A DNA stretch of 64,000 nucleotides. Source: a bacterium (GTDB taxonomy: Bacteria; Cyanobacteriota; Vampirovibrionia; Vampirovibrionales; Vampirovibrionaceae). Where the stretch lies: NCBI GenBank assembly GCA_030429585.1, contig JAUIEU010000001.1:801994-865993 (forward strand), written 5' to 3'. Shown here piece after piece: positions 5,514 through 14,921 of the stretch (positions are counted from its first letter, which is position 1; every line of letters begins with the position of its first letter). Both the position numbers and the translations under genes were made by a program. The notes below the pieces were generated by a model. The model had not been told where the DNA came from. It searched no databases and was given only the letters and a program-made list of their open reading frames with translations.

Positions 5514-6365
5514 TTAGCCTAATGTTTTGGCCACGTTGGTGGCTTCTTCCACGGCGCGGGCCAACACACTGCGGATTTTGCCGTCTTCCAAAGTGAGCAA
5601 CCCGGCAATGGTACACCCGGCAGGCGTGGTTACATCATCTCGCAAGGCTGCAGGGTGGCGGCCACTGGCTTTTACCATACTGGCAGCCCCTAATACGGTT
5701 TGGGTCACAATTTGCATGGCCAAATCCCGTGGCAGGCCCACACGTACACCTCCATCGGCCAAGGCTTCCATCATTAAATACATATAGGCCGGGCCACTGC
5801 CGCACAGGCCGGTTACCGCGTCAAAATGCTGTTCACCTAGCTGAATACACTCGCCCACGCTATCAAACAAGGCCTGGGCCAGGGCAACATGAGCGTCTGT
5901 CGTTTGGTGCCCTGGGCTAATCACCGTCATGCCGCGGCCTACCACCGCTGGGGTATTCGGCATGGCACGGATAATAGGGACACTGTCTGCCACATGCTGG
6001 GCCAGCGTGGCAATGGTTTTACCCGCGGCAATACTAATAATCAGGGTATCATCCGGCAGCCCCGCATCTGCTAGCTGTTTCACCACTTTTTCTGCCTGGG
6101 CAGGCTTAACACACAGCAACACAACGCTGGTTTGGCTAACCGGCGCCTGGGCAATATCCGTAACCACCGGCACAGGGAAGCTATCCGACACCAACATGCT
6201 AGTACGCGTGGTTTTACACGCCGCCCACACACTTTGCCGCGGAATCTCTAGCCGAGTGAGCAATGCGCTTAGCAAAGTTTGGCCCATAACACCGGCCCCA
6301 ACCACCCCGATGTGGGTGTCATTGGCATAGAGTTTCTGCAAAATAGGGTTGTTATCAGGATTCAT
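5514..6365 (-). CDS. proC: Pyrroline-5-carboxylate reductase
   Basis: A 283-residue NAD(P)H enzyme making proline from pyrroline-5-carboxylate. The N-terminal Rossmann motif IGVVGAGVMGQ, the AMPNTPAVVG segment and the C-terminal signature with TTPAGCTI are all present. It heads the minus-strand run that continues into rocD, so ornithine-to-proline conversion is encoded by adjacent genes. The 222 bases upstream are shared with the divergent rpmG. Confidence 0.96.
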   Translation of the reverse strand: MNPDNNPILQKLYANDTHIGVVGAGVMGQTLLSALLTRLEIPRQSVWAACKTTRTSMLVSDSFPVPVVTDIAQAPVSQTSVVLLCVKPAQAEKVVKQLADAGLPDDTLIISIAAGKTIATLAQHVADSVPIIRAMPNTPAVVGRGMTVISPGHQTTDAHVALAQALFDSVGECIQLGEQHFDAVTGLCGSGPAYMYLMMEALADGGVRVGLPRDLAMQIVTQTVLGAASMVKASGRHPAALRDDVTTPAGCTIAGLLTLEDGKIRSVLARAVEEATNVAKTLG

Positions 6366-6410
6366 GGCAAAGGGGCTTTATAACAAGGTGTATATAACAA
6401 GGGGGAGCGC

Positions 6411-6438
6411 TTGCAGGGCGGGGCGTTTGTGCTACAGT
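6411..6438 (+). promoter_or_regulatory. Possible sigma70-type promoter for rpmG
   Basis: TTGCAG at 6411-6416 and TACAGT at 6433-6438 are spaced by 16 bases in the proC-rpmG divergent gap. This would leave a leader of about 145 bases, which includes a small TATTGG/CCAATA hairpin near 6500. The assignment rests only on resemblance. Confidence 0.25.
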
Positions 6439-6587
6439 TATGTGCTACTAAAGCGGCCTATCTGCTACGGGTTTGCTCCTATTGTACCCAATCCTTGGGT
6501 ATTGGCATCCCCCAATAAGGGCGTATTGGTAACCACCAACCAGTTTTACTTGCATTTACCTTAACAAAATTATGGAGACCATAACCC

Positions 6588-6755
6588 ATGGCTAAAAAAG
6601 GCAAAGGCGGCCAGCACACCCGGCTAAAAAGCACGGAAAGCGGCCACGAATACCACACGAAGAAAAATAAGCAAAAGCACCCCAATCGCTTAGAGCTTAA
6701 AAAGTACGACCCACTACTAAAAAAGCACGTGCTTTATAAAGAAGAGAAAAAATAA
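6588..6755 (+). CDS. rpmG: 50S ribosomal protein L33
   Basis: A short gene of 55 codons encoding a very basic protein with the L33 pattern TRLKSTESGHEYHTKKNK, then NRLELKKYDP and a Lys-rich C-terminus. L33 sits near the E site of the large ribosomal subunit. The zinc-binding CXXC pairs of some L33 proteins are absent, so this is a Cys-minus form. A GGAG at 6574-6577 precedes the ATG. It stands alone between proC and rsmH, unusual in that L33 is often next to secE or rpsR. Confidence 0.92.
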   Translation: MAKKGKGGQHTRLKSTESGHEYHTKKNKQKHPNRLELKKYDPLLKKHVLYKEEKK

Positions 6756-6795
6756 GCCTCAGCGCGAGTTCCCCTCTTTTTATACTCAATTTTTT

Positions 6796-6821
6796 AACGG
6801 CAGCCTTTACAGGCTGTCGTT
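6796..6821 (+). terminator. Hairpin between convergent rpmG and rsmH
   Basis: An 11-bp inverted repeat (AACGGCAGCCT with AGGCTGTCGTT, one G-U pair) with a 4-base loop lies between the rpmG stop and the rsmH stop. A T-run precedes rather than follows it on the plus strand, so it is a weak, possibly bidirectional terminator. Confidence 0.4.
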
Positions 6822-6835
6822 ATTAGTGTGTGGCC

Positions 6836-7801
6836 TTAATTTCTAGGCCCCCACTCAAACACACGCAACTTGGCACTCCGCGAGCGTGGGTTTTGAGCGA
6901 TTTCCTCATCGGTGGCCACCACTGGTTTTTTGGTAAGGATACGGCCCCACCCTTCCTGTTGCCAATGCTTATAGGCCCGCTTTACCATGCGGTCTTCCAA
7001 GGAGTGGAAGCTAATAATAGCCACCCTGGCCCCTGGTGCCAGCACCGTAGGCAAGGTGGTTAGCAGGGCATTCAGTTGGCCCAACTCATCGTTCACCACA
7101 ATACGCAAGGCTTGGAACACCCGTGTTGCTGGGTGAATACGCCACTGTTGCTGGCGGTTAGCCCCCTTGGCCACAACGCCTTTTACCAAGTCTGCCAACT
7201 GGGTGGTGGTGGTAATAGGGGTTAGCGCTCGCTGGGCCACAATGGCACGGGCAATAGGGCGGGCTTTTCGTTCTTCGCCATAGTCAAAAAACCACTGGGC
7301 CAGGGTCGCCTCGTCGGCATCGGCCATTAACTCCGCAGCCGTACTCCCTGTCGATGGGTTCATGCGCATATCCAAGGGGGCTGCCTGCTTAAAGCTAAAG
7401 CCACGGGCCCCCTCATCCAATTGCATGCTAGATACCCCAATATCCGCCAATAAGCCACCGGTAATTTGCCCAGCAGGCAAGGCACCCACGTGGGTAGCAA
7501 CATCGCCAAAGGCGCCATGGCAAAAGGCGACAGTGGGCGGGTCTGCCATCGCATCACTCTGCTGGCCGAGCCACTGGGCCGTTTTCTCCAATATGCCCTT
7601 GTCTTGGTCTATCCCCAGCAAGGTACCCGTAGCCGATAGCTGCTGGGCCATGGCCCAGCTATGGCCACCGGCTCCTAAAGTCGCATCCACATAGGTTAAA
7701 TGGGCCCGGGGGCCTGTTATCGCTAACGCATCCAACACGGCAGGCAACAATACCGGCACATGGCCACGATTTAAGGCGGTTTCATCAGTAGGGGTAGTCA
7801 T
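6836..7801 (-). CDS. rsmH: 16S rRNA m4C1402 N4-methyltransferase
   Basis: A 321-residue (or 325 with an ATG 12 bases upstream) SAM-dependent methyltransferase that modifies C1402 of 16S rRNA. GHVPVLLPAVLDAL at the start, DATLGAGGHS (SAM-binding), LLADIGVSSMQLDEGARGFSF and the C-terminal ISFHSLEDRMVKR with NPRSRSAKLRV are the family hallmarks. It is usually in the division and cell-wall cluster with ftsL and ftsI, but neither is adjacent here. I prefer the ATG at 7801 because AGGGG lies just upstream. Confidence 0.96.
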   Translation of the reverse strand: MTTPTDETALNRGHVPVLLPAVLDALAITGPRAHLTYVDATLGAGGHSWAMAQQLSATGTLLGIDQDKGILEKTAQWLGQQSDAMADPPTVAFCHGAFGDVATHVGALPAGQITGGLLADIGVSSMQLDEGARGFSFKQAAPLDMRMNPSTGSTAAELMADADEATLAQWFFDYGEERKARPIARAIVAQRALTPITTTTQLADLVKGVVAKGANRQQQWRIHPATRVFQALRIVVNDELGQLNALLTTLPTVLAPGARVAIISFHSLEDRMVKRAYKHWQQEGWGRILTKKPVVATDEEIAQNPRSRSAKLRVFEWGPRN

Positions 7802-7841
7802 CGCCCCTAGCATACCGTAAAGCCAACCACGTGAGAGGCCC

Positions 7842-8663
7842 TTAATTGTTAGGGGGTGGTTTACCTGCTGTTGGCTTAGGTTTAGCGACAGGTTTACTAG
7901 GCACCCGTATGTTTTGGGTGGCCATGTGGAATTTACCCATATGGGTCAAAATATCGTGATGCGTATCCAACACCACCTTTTTTTCCTTAGGCGGTGCCTT
8001 GGGTTTAGCCTTTTTCCCTGCGGGTGCTGAGGTTTTGCCCGCCAGTCTATCCAGCACACTATACAAGCTGATAGTGTGCTCCATCTTCAAATCTTGGGCA
8101 GCCAGGCGGTAATCAAACCCCACCGGCAGCTGATACAAGGTTTCGATGGTGGTTTTATCTCTGGCGCTTAAGGCCGTGACCCCAAACTGATGAGGCACGT
8201 ACATAATATCGCCCTGGCCATCGCTATGGCCTAGCAACCCTAACGCATGGCCAATTTCGTGCAAAATGGTGTGCTGCACTTCGCCCACATCGTTATACTG
8301 GGCATGCAGTACCCCATCGCTAATACCAATGCTAATTTCCGCGCTATAAATAATGGATTTATCATTCACCAAGTATTCGCAATGGCCCAACGAGCTTCGA
8401 TCCACCCGGCGCCAACTGAGATCAATATTAGAATCGTGGACATTATTAACCAACTGGTAACGAAAGCGCCCACCTGTGGCACCTACCCAGGCATCCAAAG
8501 ACTGTAGTACCATTTGCCTATACCCGCCAGATTCGCGCTGTTTAGACTGTTCGTACCAGGTAAATGGCGCCACATACACTTTTAAAGGCATGGCAGCGTC
8601 AGGCCAGCGCACGGTGCGGCCCTCTTTAAGGCAAGGTTCTAGGTATGTCCAATGGCGAGGCAT
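7842..8663 (-). CDS. Matrixin-like zinc metalloprotease (M10)
   Basis: A 273-residue protein with the metzincin signature HEIGHALGLLGHSD at about residues 135-148 (three zinc-binding residues and the catalytic Glu) followed by the Met-turn IMY near 153-155. The C-terminal 70 residues are Lys/Pro-rich and probably disordered. Matrixins cleave extracellular proteins and are normally exported, yet the ATG at 8663 gives PRHWTYLEPCLKEGR with no signal peptide, and a TTG two codons upstream adds none. It may therefore act in the cytoplasm or be exported by another route. Zinc-protease identity is firm; the substrate is unknown. Confidence 0.85.
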   Translation of the reverse strand: MPRHWTYLEPCLKEGRTVRWPDAAMPLKVYVAPFTWYEQSKQRESGGYRQMVLQSLDAWVGATGGRFRYQLVNNVHDSNIDLSWRRVDRSSLGHCEYLVNDKSIIYSAEISIGISDGVLHAQYNDVGEVQHTILHEIGHALGLLGHSDGQGDIMYVPHQFGVTALSARDKTTIETLYQLPVGFDYRLAAQDLKMEHTISLYSVLDRLAGKTSAPAGKKAKPKAPPKEKKVVLDTHHDILTHMGKFHMATQNIRVPSKPVAKPKPTAGKPPPNN

Positions 8664-8736
8664 AAGCAAATAATAGGGCTTGGTGGGGGCTCAACCGTAA
8701 GCTTAGTATCGGCAAGCTGGCCGCAAAATTCAATGG

Positions 8737-8891: not shown

Positions 8892-10388
8892 ATGCCAAAC
8901 TTAGCCGCCGAGCAGGCGCACTATTTTTTTACCCACCTACTGGATACCAGCGGGTTTCCAGCGCGCTGGTTTTGCGGGCAATGGTCCGGCTTTACCGGCT
9001 GGCTTCATATTGGTTCTGATGTAGCTATATGGGCCGCCTACATGGTGGTGCCCAGTATTTTAATCGTACTGCTACTGCTTAAAAAATTACCCAAACCCTG
9101 GATTATTGGGCTTATTATTTTTTACCACCTGTTTTGCGGGTTTGGCCACCTGCTAGAGGCCGGCATTTTTTGGTGGCCCGCCTACCGCCTGGCTGGCGTG
9201 GTTAAACTACTAACGGCCGGTATTTCTTGGGTTACCCTGGCCGCCTTGCTGCCGTTGTTCCCTAAACTACTAAGCTTAAAAACCTACGACGATCTTCAGC
9301 TTGAAATTAACCAACGGCAGCAAGCTGAAGAAACCACACGCAAAACCTTGCTAAAAACTCAATCCATTTTAGATACAGCCGCCGATATTATTATGACCGC
9401 AGAAAACGACGGCACGATAGTCTCCAGCAACCTGGCCAGCAAACGAATTACAGGGTACACCCCCACCGAAATTTGCGGGCAATCCCTAGCCATGTTGCTG
9501 GCAGACGATGAAACCCTAACGCTAAGCGATATATTTACCCCCAGCACAAATACCATTAAGCGAGAGGTCACCCTAAAACGAAAAAACAACACCACCTTTC
9601 CGGCGGAAGTGGTTGTTAGGCATTTGGATTACGGCCAAGAGCAGGCATACACCTGTATTATTCGGGATACCAGCGAGCGCGAAGCCGCCAAGCAAGCCCT
9701 GCTTGCCCGAAATGTAGAACTCGAACAATTCGCATCCGTCGCATCACACGACCTTCAAGAGCCTCTGCGCAAGGTATCCGCTTATGCCAGCATTTTGCAG
9801 GATGATTATACCGACGCCCTTGATGATGAAGGACAACGGTACCTACAAAGCATGATGGGTGCCACCGAACGAATGAAGCGGCTCATCCACGACCTGCGAA
9901 ACTACTCTCGTGTTAGCAGCCGATCTAAGCCCTTTGAGCAAGTAGACCTAGACGCCGTTATGCAAGACGTACACTCTGATATGGAGTACCGACTAAACGA
10001 CGCCAACGGTACCGTTACATGGGAGCCCCTACCCACCATTAACGGCGACCCTGTCCAGCTACACCAGTTATTCCAAAACCTGGTAGGCAACGGGCTTAAG
10101 TACCACAAGCCCGGTGTACCGCCCCACGTGGCCCTAACCCTGGATAATACCCGCCCAGGCTTTATCGGCATTATGGTAACGGATAACGGCATTGGCTTTG
10201 AAGACAAACATACCAAACAAATTTTTACTATTTTTAAACGCCTACACACCCGAACAGAATACGAAGGCACGGGCGTTGGCCTAGCGATTTGCCACAAAAT
10301 TGTAGAGCAACACGGTGGCACCATTACCGCCAAAGGCACCCCCGGCCATGGCGCCACCTTTACCCTGCATTTACCCACCCAAACCTGA
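8892..10388 (+). CDS. Ethylene-receptor-like membrane histidine kinase
   Basis: A 498-residue sensor kinase. Residues 38-128 form three membrane helices that match the ethylene-binding domain of plant ETR1 and cyanobacterial SynEtr1: GSD with Asp43, Tyr50, then FCGFGHL with Cys82 and His86. These correspond to ETR1 Asp25, Tyr32, Cys65 and His69, where Cys65 and His69 hold the copper cofactor. ETR1 Ile62 is His79 here. A PAS domain (about 155-262) follows, then a HisKA domain with phospho-acceptor His286 in SHDLQEPLRK, and an HATPase domain with NLVGNGLKYH, DNGIGF and GTGVGLAI. The ATG at 8892 is preceded by AGGA; a TTG 48 bases upstream is possible. The response regulator gene follows after 55 bases. 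Confidence 0.88.
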   Translation: MPNLAAEQAHYFFTHLLDTSGFPARWFCGQWSGFTGWLHIGSDVAIWAAYMVVPSILIVLLLLKKLPKPWIIGLIIFYHLFCGFGHLLEAGIFWWPAYRLAGVVKLLTAGISWVTLAALLPLFPKLLSLKTYDDLQLEINQRQQAEETTRKTLLKTQSILDTAADIIMTAENDGTIVSSNLASKRITGYTPTEICGQSLAMLLADDETLTLSDIFTPSTNTIKREVTLKRKNNTTFPAEVVVRHLDYGQEQAYTCIIRDTSEREAAKQALLARNVELEQFASVASHDLQEPLRKVSAYASILQDDYTDALDDEGQRYLQSMMGATERMKRLIHDLRNYSRVSSRSKPFEQVDLDAVMQDVHSDMEYRLNDANGTVTWEPLPTINGDPVQLHQLFQNLVGNGLKYHKPGVPPHVALTLDNTRPGFIGIMVTDNGIGFEDKHTKQIFTIFKRLHTRTEYEGTGVGLAICHKIVEQHGGTITAKGTPGHGATFTLHLPTQT

Positions 10389-10443
10389 CCGATTGGTAAA
10401 CCATCCCTAATATTTGCTATACTTACCCTAACGGAGAGACCTT

Positions 10444-10995
10444 ATGAGCCCCGCCCCCGATTCTCTTGTTCCCCCAAAATATTTTGCCACCCCGCCTACA
10501 GAAACACCCCACCCCATCTCTATGAGCACCCCACCCGACTATTCCAACCTAACACCCGCTAACATTTTACTGGTAGATGACGACCCAGAAGATCGGATGC
10601 TGAGCCGCCTTGCCTTAAAAAAGCACCAGCTCATTAACCACGTCAACGAAGTGGCCAACGGGGAAGAGCTATTGCAATATCTAAGCCGCGAAGGCGAATT
10701 TAGCGACCCAACCCAGCACCCCATGCCCGATTTAATATTGCTAGATATTAATATGCCTAGAATGACAGGGTTAGAGGCCCTGGCTGAAATCCGAAAAAAG
10801 CCACACCTAAAAAGCCTACCGGTGGTTATTTTAACCACCAGCAATGCGGATAAAGATATTGTTGAAAGCTACGATCTAGGGGTTAATTCCTACATTACCA
10901 AGCCCGTTACCTTTAAAGGGTTTACCACCGCCCTGACCCAAATGAGCGATTACTGGTTTGCCCTGGTAAAGCGGCCTGCTGCCAATAAGCGCTAA
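10444..10995 (+). CDS. Rcp1-type single-domain response regulator
   Basis: A 183-residue protein with one receiver domain from about residue 39. The acidic cluster LLVDDDPED, the phospho-acceptor Asp101 in LILLDINMP, TTSN and the conserved Lys in ITKPV are present, and there is no output domain. The spacing and the LXXXGEF insertion resemble Rcp1-like regulators that pair with phytochrome-type kinases. A GGAGAG precedes the ATG. The first ~38 residues are Pro-rich. Its placement directly after the ethylene-receptor-like kinase makes it the likely phosphotransfer partner; the downstream target is unknown. Confidence 0.9.
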   Translation: MSPAPDSLVPPKYFATPPTETPHPISMSTPPDYSNLTPANILLVDDDPEDRMLSRLALKKHQLINHVNEVANGEELLQYLSREGEFSDPTQHPMPDLILLDINMPRMTGLEALAEIRKKPHLKSLPVVILTTSNADKDIVESYDLGVNSYITKPVTFKGFTTALTQMSDYWFALVKRPAANKR

Positions 10996-11016: not shown

Positions 11017-12234
11017 CTAATCCATTTTAATGCGCGTCGGGTGGAGCCTTCGGCTGGATTCGGCAATTTTATCTTGCAGCATGGATAAGGTGGCCTCTTC
11101 ACTGGGAGCGCGCTTCCGTTTGCCGCGGTCGCCTGCTGCTTCTACCGGCACCCCATGGATCCGTTCAATCACTTTGGTGGCCAAACGTTCTTGCTCCAGT
11201 TCTCGTTTTAAACGCTCGTTCTCGTTTTTTAGCTGGCCAATATAGTGATTCAGCTTATCAATTTCCGTGTGCTCGTCTTCTTTTTCTGTGGCCCGTTCTC
11301 GCAAAGCTTTGGCCAAGCCTTGCAGGGCACTTTCTACCGATTCGTTTTTAGCCGCCGCAAAGGTCATGCCCGCTTCTGGGGTAGCCCCAGCATGTTTACA
11401 GTGGCGCTTTCGCACTTTTATCTTTTTGGTAAAGCCCTTACTGTAAAAGAAGAACTCACCAGGCTGCAGCCCACGGATTTCTTTATAACTAATGCCTGCC
11501 TCATTCAAAAACGGACGGATGGCCTTATAATCCTGCTCGGCACTAATACCCCCAAACCAAAATCGGTTGCACTGGCTTAAAATATCCTTACTAATACTGG
11601 CCGGTCGTTGGGTAGCCCACAAACTATCAATGGCGCGTTTACGGCCCCGTTTGGCTAGCTTTTGGCTTTCTAGCAGCGGATCTTTTCGTTTATCTTTTTT
11701 GCCCGCCATACCCGCGGTTTTTTGGGGCGCGTAAATTTGGGCCTCTTCCACCACAATGCGTATTTTTCGGCGATATTTTTGCTCGGCGGTAAACAAGGCA
11801 TCGGCAATTAGGCCGTACAAATGCTGTTGCTCGTGGTCCACATACTCACTTAAATCAAACACAGCACTAATACCGGTTTTTAGCATGGCATCCACATACA
11901 GCTCAATGGCGTCTTCTTCCAGCGGCAAGTTGGCCTGCTCGCCCCCCACAATCATCATGGGGTAACGTTCCGCCAGGGTAAAATGCTCGCCTTCTGGGTC
12001 AATCACACACAGCAAGCTGTTGTTTTCGATGGTTTCTTCCATCAACACACCGGTTAAATAGCTTTTCCCCATCCCAGAGCTGGCCAAAATCGCGTCCCGT
12101 TCACCGGTGGCTTTGTAATCATCCAGCGGCACACTAAACATAGGCGCCACACGCAGCGCACGTGGTCCTTGGGCTGCCTTGGCAACAGCATTGCCTACGG
12201 TTTTGCTAACTGTCTTACGGATGGCATCAAACAT
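11017..12234 (-). CDS. HerA/DUF87-like ATPase with C-terminal coiled coil
   Basis: A 405-residue P-loop ATPase. Walker A is ASSGMGKSY near residues 51-59; Walker B is IRIVVEEAQIYAP. ATQRPASISKDIL is the sensor/arginine-finger region typical of HerA and VirB4-like ATPases. Residues about 290-345 are strongly charged and heptad-like, suggesting a coiled coil. HerA-family hexamers pump or translocate DNA and serve in repair with NurA, in plasmid transfer or in antiphage systems with Sir2 or DUF4297 partners. None of those partners is adjacent. The only neighbour is the divergent adenine methylase, so its role is open. Confidence 0.8.
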   Translation of the reverse strand: MFDAIRKTVSKTVGNAVAKAAQGPRALRVAPMFSVPLDDYKATGERDAILASSGMGKSYLTGVLMEETIENNSLLCVIDPEGEHFTLAERYPMMIVGGEQANLPLEEDAIELYVDAMLKTGISAVFDLSEYVDHEQQHLYGLIADALFTAEQKYRRKIRIVVEEAQIYAPQKTAGMAGKKDKRKDPLLESQKLAKRGRKRAIDSLWATQRPASISKDILSQCNRFWFGGISAEQDYKAIRPFLNEAGISYKEIRGLQPGEFFFYSKGFTKKIKVRKRHCKHAGATPEAGMTFAAAKNESVESALQGLAKALRERATEKEDEHTEIDKLNHYIGQLKNENERLKRELEQERLATKVIERIHGVPVEAAGDRGKRKRAPSEEATLSMLQDKIAESSRRLHPTRIKMD

Positions 12235-14427: not shown

Positions 14428-14820
14428 TTAATTGAGCAGGCGGGCCAATCGTAAATACCGATACCGATGGCTCGGTTGGTAACGCTGCTGATACACACGA
14501 GTATTTGCAGGGTTATTGTTAAAAGCAATAAGCGGCTGTGCTAACGTGCTAGGCGCCGGTAAGGCAGCAGATAGATGTTGTGTAGTCTTATCAGTGGCAT
14601 TAAGCGTGCTAGCAGGCAGCACGGCAGGCGACACACTACAACACGGCGCCAACACAGGCACATCGTCCGCAGGTTCTGGTTGAGCTGAATGACACGGCGT
14701 TGGCTGAGGAGCCGTTTGCGAGTCATTATCGCAACAGGCATGCGACACGCCAGCCAATGACCATACGGCCACCAGCACCGTTAAAACGGCAAACAAGGTA
14801 CGTGTTATAAAACGCTGCAT
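14428..14820 (-). CDS. Exported protein with Cys-Cys pairs
   Basis: A 130-residue protein with an N-terminal signal peptide (RFITRTLFAVLTVLVAVWSL, cleavage near VSHA). Directly after it come CCDND, later TPCHS and APCCSVSP, so the mature N-terminal half carries five cysteines, two pairs of them adjacent. The C-terminal region is basic and aromatic (QQRYQPSHRYRYLRLARLLN). The GTG 15 bases upstream is a less likely start. No family is recognised. Cys pairs together with the neighbouring Cys-Cys micropeptide suggest metal handling at the cell surface, but this is inference. Confidence 0.6.
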   Translation of the reverse strand: MQRFITRTLFAVLTVLVAVWSLAGVSHACCDNDSQTAPQPTPCHSAQPEPADDVPVLAPCCSVSPAVLPASTLNATDKTTQHLSAALPAPSTLAQPLIAFNNNPANTRVYQQRYQPSHRYRYLRLARLLN

Positions 14821-14921
14821 ATTTCTACTATACACTATGGGGTTACCAATACTAGTGATTACAGCGCAACACTAAAGTTCCCAATAATAACAATGGGATT
14901 ACATGGTAAACACAAGCTAAC

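Follow-up and report, generated by a model that had tools for sequence, protein, structure and literature searches.

What does the sensor kinase of the locus at positions 8892–10995 of this window (the whole 64,000-nucleotide stretch of DNA analyzed here) respond to, and how closely does it resemble a receptor for ethylene? The first-pass annotation had described an ethylene-receptor-like histidine kinase with its response regulator, possibly in a Vampirovibrio-like host that, if associated with algae, might find or judge them by ethylene. The host indeed belongs to the same family as a Vampirovibrio sp. genome (G008), and the locus almost certainly encodes a two-component pair.

Sensor kinase and response regulator

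The kinase open reading frame is intact, running on the forward strand from an ATG at 8892 to a stop at 10388, and encodes a 498-amino acid protein composed of an ethylene-binding domain (EBD) followed by PAS, HisKA, and HATPase domains. The membrane domain (amino acids 36–129; 8997–9278) matches Pfam ETR1_N (PF25487) with 80.9 bits (E 8.2e-23), far above the curated 27-bit cutoff. It was modeled by AlphaFold2 with high confidence (pLDDT 96.7) as three long helices (amino acids 33–63, 69–91, and 98–128), and the proposed match to the three-helix EBD is thus borne out by both profile search and structure prediction. Just N-terminal to the domain is an RWFCGQW motif (amino acids 25–31; 8964–8984), which contains the conserved Cys28 and has the RWxCG form typical of clade-B EBDs (see below).

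In MAFFT alignments with ETR1 and homologues, Asp43 (codon 9018–9020), Tyr50 (9039–9041), Cys82, and His86 fall exactly on ETR1 D25, Y32, C65, and H69, and the register asserted in the annotation therefore holds. Beyond these four, Lys105 (9204–9206) falls on K91, the partner of D25, and S112 on S98. Cys82 and His86 are part of a pocket motif on helix 2, H79-x2-C82-x3-H86 (9126–9149). The register is independent of the ETR1 letters used in these alignments, because Pfam and AzoEtr1 give the same one. The ETR1_N match and the register are far beyond what chance would give.

The PAS domain (amino acids 166–262; 9387–9677; PAS_9, 49.5 bits) is followed by a HisKA domain (amino acids 277–342; 9720–9917) with phosphoacceptor His286 and a HATPase_c domain (amino acids 385–497; 10044–10382) with N, G1, and G2 boxes, which completes the catalytic set. 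In a sequence search of the PDB, the kinase core came out close to bacteriophytochrome kinases. The regulator gene (10444–10995, forward strand) starts 55 nucleotides downstream of the kinase gene and encodes a 183-amino acid protein in which the receiver (Response_reg, 87 bits) is the sole domain. Proteins of solved structure related to it include Rcp1 (1i3c, E 9.7e-26), RcpA, and RcpB, and the phosphoacceptor Asp101, the acid pair, and the Thr and Lys residues of a receiver are all present. As a lone receiver with Rcp1-like sequence and an intact acid pocket, the protein has the features of an Rcp1-type single-domain regulator. Pfam domains and PDB relatives are in agreement with the linkage between the EBD, the PAS, HisKA, and HATPase domains, and an Rcp1-type regulator that had been annotated.

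Three neighboring genes are all on the reverse strand. A small matrixin-like metalloprotease (7842–8669; Peptidase_M10, 30 bits) is encoded divergently beside the kinase gene, and a HerA/DUF87-type ATPase with a coiled-coil-like tail (11017–12234) is convergent with the regulator gene. Farther away, a short secreted-looking Cys/His-rich protein (14428–14835; CCDND, CH, and CC motifs) could bind metal.

Relationship to known ethylene-type receptors

Bacterial EBD kinases are already known and widespread, and the window kinase is a new member of this group, with the pair constituting an addition from the Vampirovibrio family to the bacterial ethylene-type receptors. As in bacterial ethylene receptors, an N-terminal three-helix EBD with the Cys/His pair is joined to a kinase, and a regulator adjoins. 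The AzoEtr1/AzoRR-etr1 pair of Azospirillum brasilense is a functional ethylene receptor system, composed of a 525-amino acid kinase and a 135-amino acid regulator without an output domain (PMC11819568). The architecture is like that of the window, with EBD, PAS, and kinase in ~500 amino acids followed by a stand-alone receiver lacking an output domain, and in an alignment with the recovered AzoEtr1 sequence the D, Y, P, C, H, and K positions agree. However, AzoEtr1 has seven of seven residues essential for ethylene binding as compared to five of seven in the window kinase, and it belongs to clade A with a PHGxC N-terminus, whereas the window kinase belongs to clade B with RWFCG. Of these two kinases, ethylene binding has been shown for AzoEtr1 only.

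SynEtr1 of Synechocystis (slr1212) is likewise a bacterial EBD sensor kinase that acts on a response regulator (PMC11819568, PMC6682694). SynEtr1 also senses UV-A and its regulator drives transcription, whereas the window kinase has no Pfam photosensor domain and its regulator no output domain. A light sensor of the SynEtr1 kind was dropped as a candidate on account of the missing photosensor domain. Plant ETR1 resembles the window kinase in its three-helix EBD, where the Asp, Tyr, Pro, Cys, His, and Lys residues line up. It differs in carrying Ile62 and Ile35 where the window kinase has His and Val, in containing a GAF domain and a receiver within the same protein, and in signaling for the most part independently of its kinase activity. 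The Cph1–Rcp1 and bacteriophytochrome–Rcp pairs are close by sequence in kinase core and receiver (PDB), but their sensor is a phytochrome rather than an EBD. Three-gene cassettes in Bacteroidota (L029:7980–10385 and L041:7935–10029) have the clade-B N-terminus, a similar kinase, and an Rcp1-type regulator; unlike in the window, the EBD is a separate protein, such that EBD, kinase, and regulator are encoded by three genes.

The EBD tree has two clades. Clade A contains AzoEtr1 along with cyanobacterial and proteobacterial members, and clade B contains the window kinase along with members from Bacteroidota, Planctomycetota, and Vampirovibrionales. The RWxCG N-terminus marks clade B, occurring in 44 of its 47 EBDs as compared to 0 of 59 others. 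The EBD occurs sporadically, in 2 of 10 host-family genomes and 11 of 58 relatives, and the kinase of G008 is placed apart from the window kinase in the tree. This combination suggests that the window EBD kinase was likely acquired by horizontal transfer.

The binding pocket and its possible ligands

Seven residues of ETR1 are essential for ethylene binding, with I35, P36, I62, C65, and H69 among them (PMC6586836). The set tallied here was D25, Y32, I35, P36, I62, C65, and H69. The window EBD retains five of these, short of the seven of a bacterial ethylene receptor, with I35 replaced by Val and I62 by His79. Tyr32 was reportedly counted among the essential residues by Wang in 2006. Two further changes with respect to ETR1 are F58 to Ile and F61 to Tyr. 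The His in place of Ile62, which had been pointed out in the annotation, is present at this position in just 1 of 107 gathered EBDs, that of the window, and creates an HxxCxxxH face. F58I is likewise found in the window EBD alone, and F61Y is unusual. Over the same 107 EBDs, Cys65 is conserved in 104, His69 in 107, and Tyr32 in 101. Positions 25 and 91 covary, being D–K or D–R in most EBDs and swapped to N–D in 24 of the 59 clade-A members. This joint change fits the published D25–K91 contact (PMC11819568), and the window EBD has the D–K pair. The window domain scores below the EBDs of its relatives (85 versus 112–128 bits).

Residues 62, 65, and 69 share one face of an ideal helix, and H79 could thus be a third copper ligand. 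Neither sequence nor fold search of the PDB returned a solved EBD structure, and template geometry is consequently lacking. The host uses copper, as evident from a heme-copper oxidase in its genome. No HMA domain or P1B ATPase was recognized in this genome (94.9% complete); these were seen in 13–14 of 14 control genomes. We consider it probable that the window EBD binds copper. That ethylene is the natural ligand of the kinase is a more tentative proposal, toward which we do not lean; this claim appears weaker than the family assignment, given the five of seven residues, the unique His79, the clade-B membership, and the lack of a recognized copper P-type ATPase. To our knowledge, clade B includes no tested ethylene binder. 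The natural Ile62-to-His change provides a test of what the EBD pocket can bind.

The best explanation for the locus as a whole, and on balance a probable one, is a two-component system in which an EBD-gated kinase acts on an Rcp1-type regulator. Starting from the domains, register, catalytic residues, and gene order observed, we infer the copper, the ligand, and the direction of signaling as follows. The kinase dimer would carry the three-helix EBD in the membrane, where Cu(I) would most likely be bound by C82 and H86, possibly joined by H79. The signal would be either the loading of copper itself or the binding of ethylene or some other small π-acceptor to the copper. Such a signal may alter helix packing through the D43–K105 contact and set the level of His286 autophosphorylation, with the phosphate then passing to Asp101 of the regulator. 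As the regulator has no output domain, it would act by protein contact.

In a different reading, the same pocket would sense copper or redox state and not ethylene: H79, C82, and H86 would form a tight three-ligand Cu(I) site with no opening for an olefin, and occupancy of the site would be the signal. A His in place of Ile62 (1 of 107 EBDs) and the predicted common face of positions 62, 65, and 69 are consistent with such a site, as is a host that uses copper in its heme-copper oxidase but whose copper supply may vary for want of a recognized copper ATPase. Retention of D25, Y32, P36, C65, H69, and K91, all as in ethylene receptors, makes this reading rather unlikely in our estimation. It is also conceivable that the pocket has decayed and that the EBD is a mere membrane anchor for a kinase answering mainly to its PAS domain. 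While four unusual substitutions located in the pocket or close to it (I35V, F58I, F61Y, and I62H) and the long branch of the window EBD in the tree point in this direction, every candidate metal ligand and the D–K pair are retained and the AlphaFold model is confident, and we regard decay as improbable.

Ethylene-binding domains in phage lysis modules

The window kinase is not the sole EBD protein of its host, and the larger result, the occurrence of EBDs in phages, lies outside the window. A complete 38-kb prophage is integrated at tRNA-Ala in the host genome (G000:C1:746241–784676; L003, L004, and L005), with an integrase beside the tRNA and a second copy of the tRNA 3' end (23 + 15 bp, from G000:C1:784628) at the opposite boundary. 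The prophage has terminase, portal, coat, tail, fiber, and replication genes and a CI-like repressor; gene names were read from open reading frames, except for the holin, EBD, receiver, DUF1353, and integrase. A holin gene (PF16083, 34.6 bits) is followed in order by genes for a 133-amino acid EBD (G000:C1:771115–771516, equivalent to L004:9116–9517), a 115-amino acid receiver (L004:9510–9857), and a YkuD-like protein just below the Pfam cutoff. Successive genes overlap by 1 to 10 nucleotides, which suggests that they are read together, probably as one operon. There is no kinase gene in this cassette.

The prophage EBD matches ETR1_N with 86.3 bits, above the 27-bit cutoff, and its AlphaFold2 model has a pLDDT of 94.8. 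By alignment it holds all seven essential residues along with K91, and is more canonical than the window EBD. The two EBDs are 33–39% identical, which excludes their being recent copies of each other, and their placement as sisters is compatible with the AU test (p-AU 0.36) without being favored by it. No comparable stand-alone EBD was found in the other genomes among 382 of the class, aside from one short match at a contig end.

The pairing of an EBD with a receiver in the absence of a kinase raises the possibility of a decoy, which would mix with the host EBD kinase, take its phosphate, and silence the host pathway. The host EBD kinase is 40 kb from the prophage EBD, D53, K99, and the acid pair are conserved in the prophage receiver, and the Bacteroidota cassettes indicate that an EBD can function as a separate subunit. 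A decoy nevertheless seems distinctly unlikely, as prophage and host EBDs are only 33–39% identical, the host genome has 13 other HisKA kinases, and other phage EBDs in lysis modules have no adjoining receiver.

Scans of IMG/VR and phage genomes yielded 11 further distinct phage EBD loci, for a total of 12 with the prophage, and all that were Pfam-tested are over the ETR1_N cutoff. A tblastn search of 50,697 phage genomes with the window and prophage EBDs gave no matches, nor did a scan of viral sequences with the prophage EBD as the single query protein. Broader alignments, and then the L132 EBD as query, did retrieve phage relatives, and the first negatives thus reflected sensitivity. Ten of the 12 loci are within 2 kb of a cell-wall-lytic or lysis gene. 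The exceptions are L131, a 109-kb contig with the EBD beside a PAS protein, and L022, a viral contig in which genes for an EBD kinase and an Rcp1-type regulator (6252–7836) lie among capsid genes. Among the ten, the EBD lies beside a muramidase (PF11860) in L132, before Phage_lysozyme2 (PF18013) in L134, by a GH108 endolysin in L138 and L140–L143 (by Pfam in L138 and L141 and evident from sequence in the remaining loci), and by GH19 in L139. In place and operon structure, phage EBD genes resemble the genes of lysis cassettes (holin, endolysin, and spanin).

The cultured Maribacter phages Molly and Colly make a link between phage EBDs and lysis directly testable. Their 289-amino acid protein Molly1_65 (L135:5890–6759 in Molly_1 and L136:3890–4759 in Colly_1) is encoded 3 bp before an Amidase_3 gene, is annotated as hypothetical, and consists of an EBD fused to ~160 amino acids of unknown sequence. 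A foldseek match of equal length, A0A8E4UZR7, is probably the same protein. In the paper describing Molly, the amidase is called a potential endolysin and nearby membrane proteins are mentioned, and the word ethylene is absent (PMC8776804). A literature search combining 'ethylene receptor' with phage words returned no description of a lysis protein with an ethylene-receptor domain.

The Cys65/His69 pair is present in 11 of the 12 phage EBDs (the Cys is missing in L131), Ile62 in 12 of 12, and Tyr32 in all except L022. Pro36 is replaced by Gly, Ser, or Ala in most, and D25–K91 drifts as a pair in several. This pattern suggests retention of the metal pair alongside a loosened output contact. On the EBD tree the phage label changes at least four times, which favors phage capture of the EBD more than once; a single clade of all lysis-module EBDs nevertheless falls short of formal rejection by the AU test (p 0.072), and one origin retains some probability.

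We propose, from sequence evidence, that phage EBDs may be copper-binding, possibly gas-sensing, regulators of lysis timing. The fuller form of this proposal, to which we would give somewhat less than an even chance, is that tailed phages captured ethylene-receptor sensor domains, probably repeatedly, and that these serve in the lysis module as membrane proteins that bind copper and adjust lysis time to a small-molecule or metal signal, with the window kinase as their cell-borne counterpart in one such host. If true, EBDs in lysis modules would join a hormone-receptor fold to the lysis decision, and we rank this above the window pair in importance. Class I holins also have three-helix topology, and phage EBDs might simply be ordinary holins or antiholins, lysis proteins whose fold happens to be that of the EBD and which bind no metal. 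Location in lysis modules and the lack of the Cys in L131 are compatible with this simpler view. We consider it unlikely, however, because the prophage has a separate holin gene (PF16083), and because Cys65, His69, Ile62, Ile35, and Tyr32 are kept throughout the L132–L143 family and Molly, beyond the needs of the fold.

The stand-alone EBDs of the IMG/VR loci (L132, L134, and L138–L143) form a family with a conserved N-terminus, GAERYSQHxxCLTNDP. Directly upstream in most of these loci is a gene, overlapping that of the EBD, for a 155–182-amino acid protein with one transmembrane segment and a conserved Cys, and an integrase is located downstream in several. L022 has an extra small receiver-like open reading frame (9003–9365).
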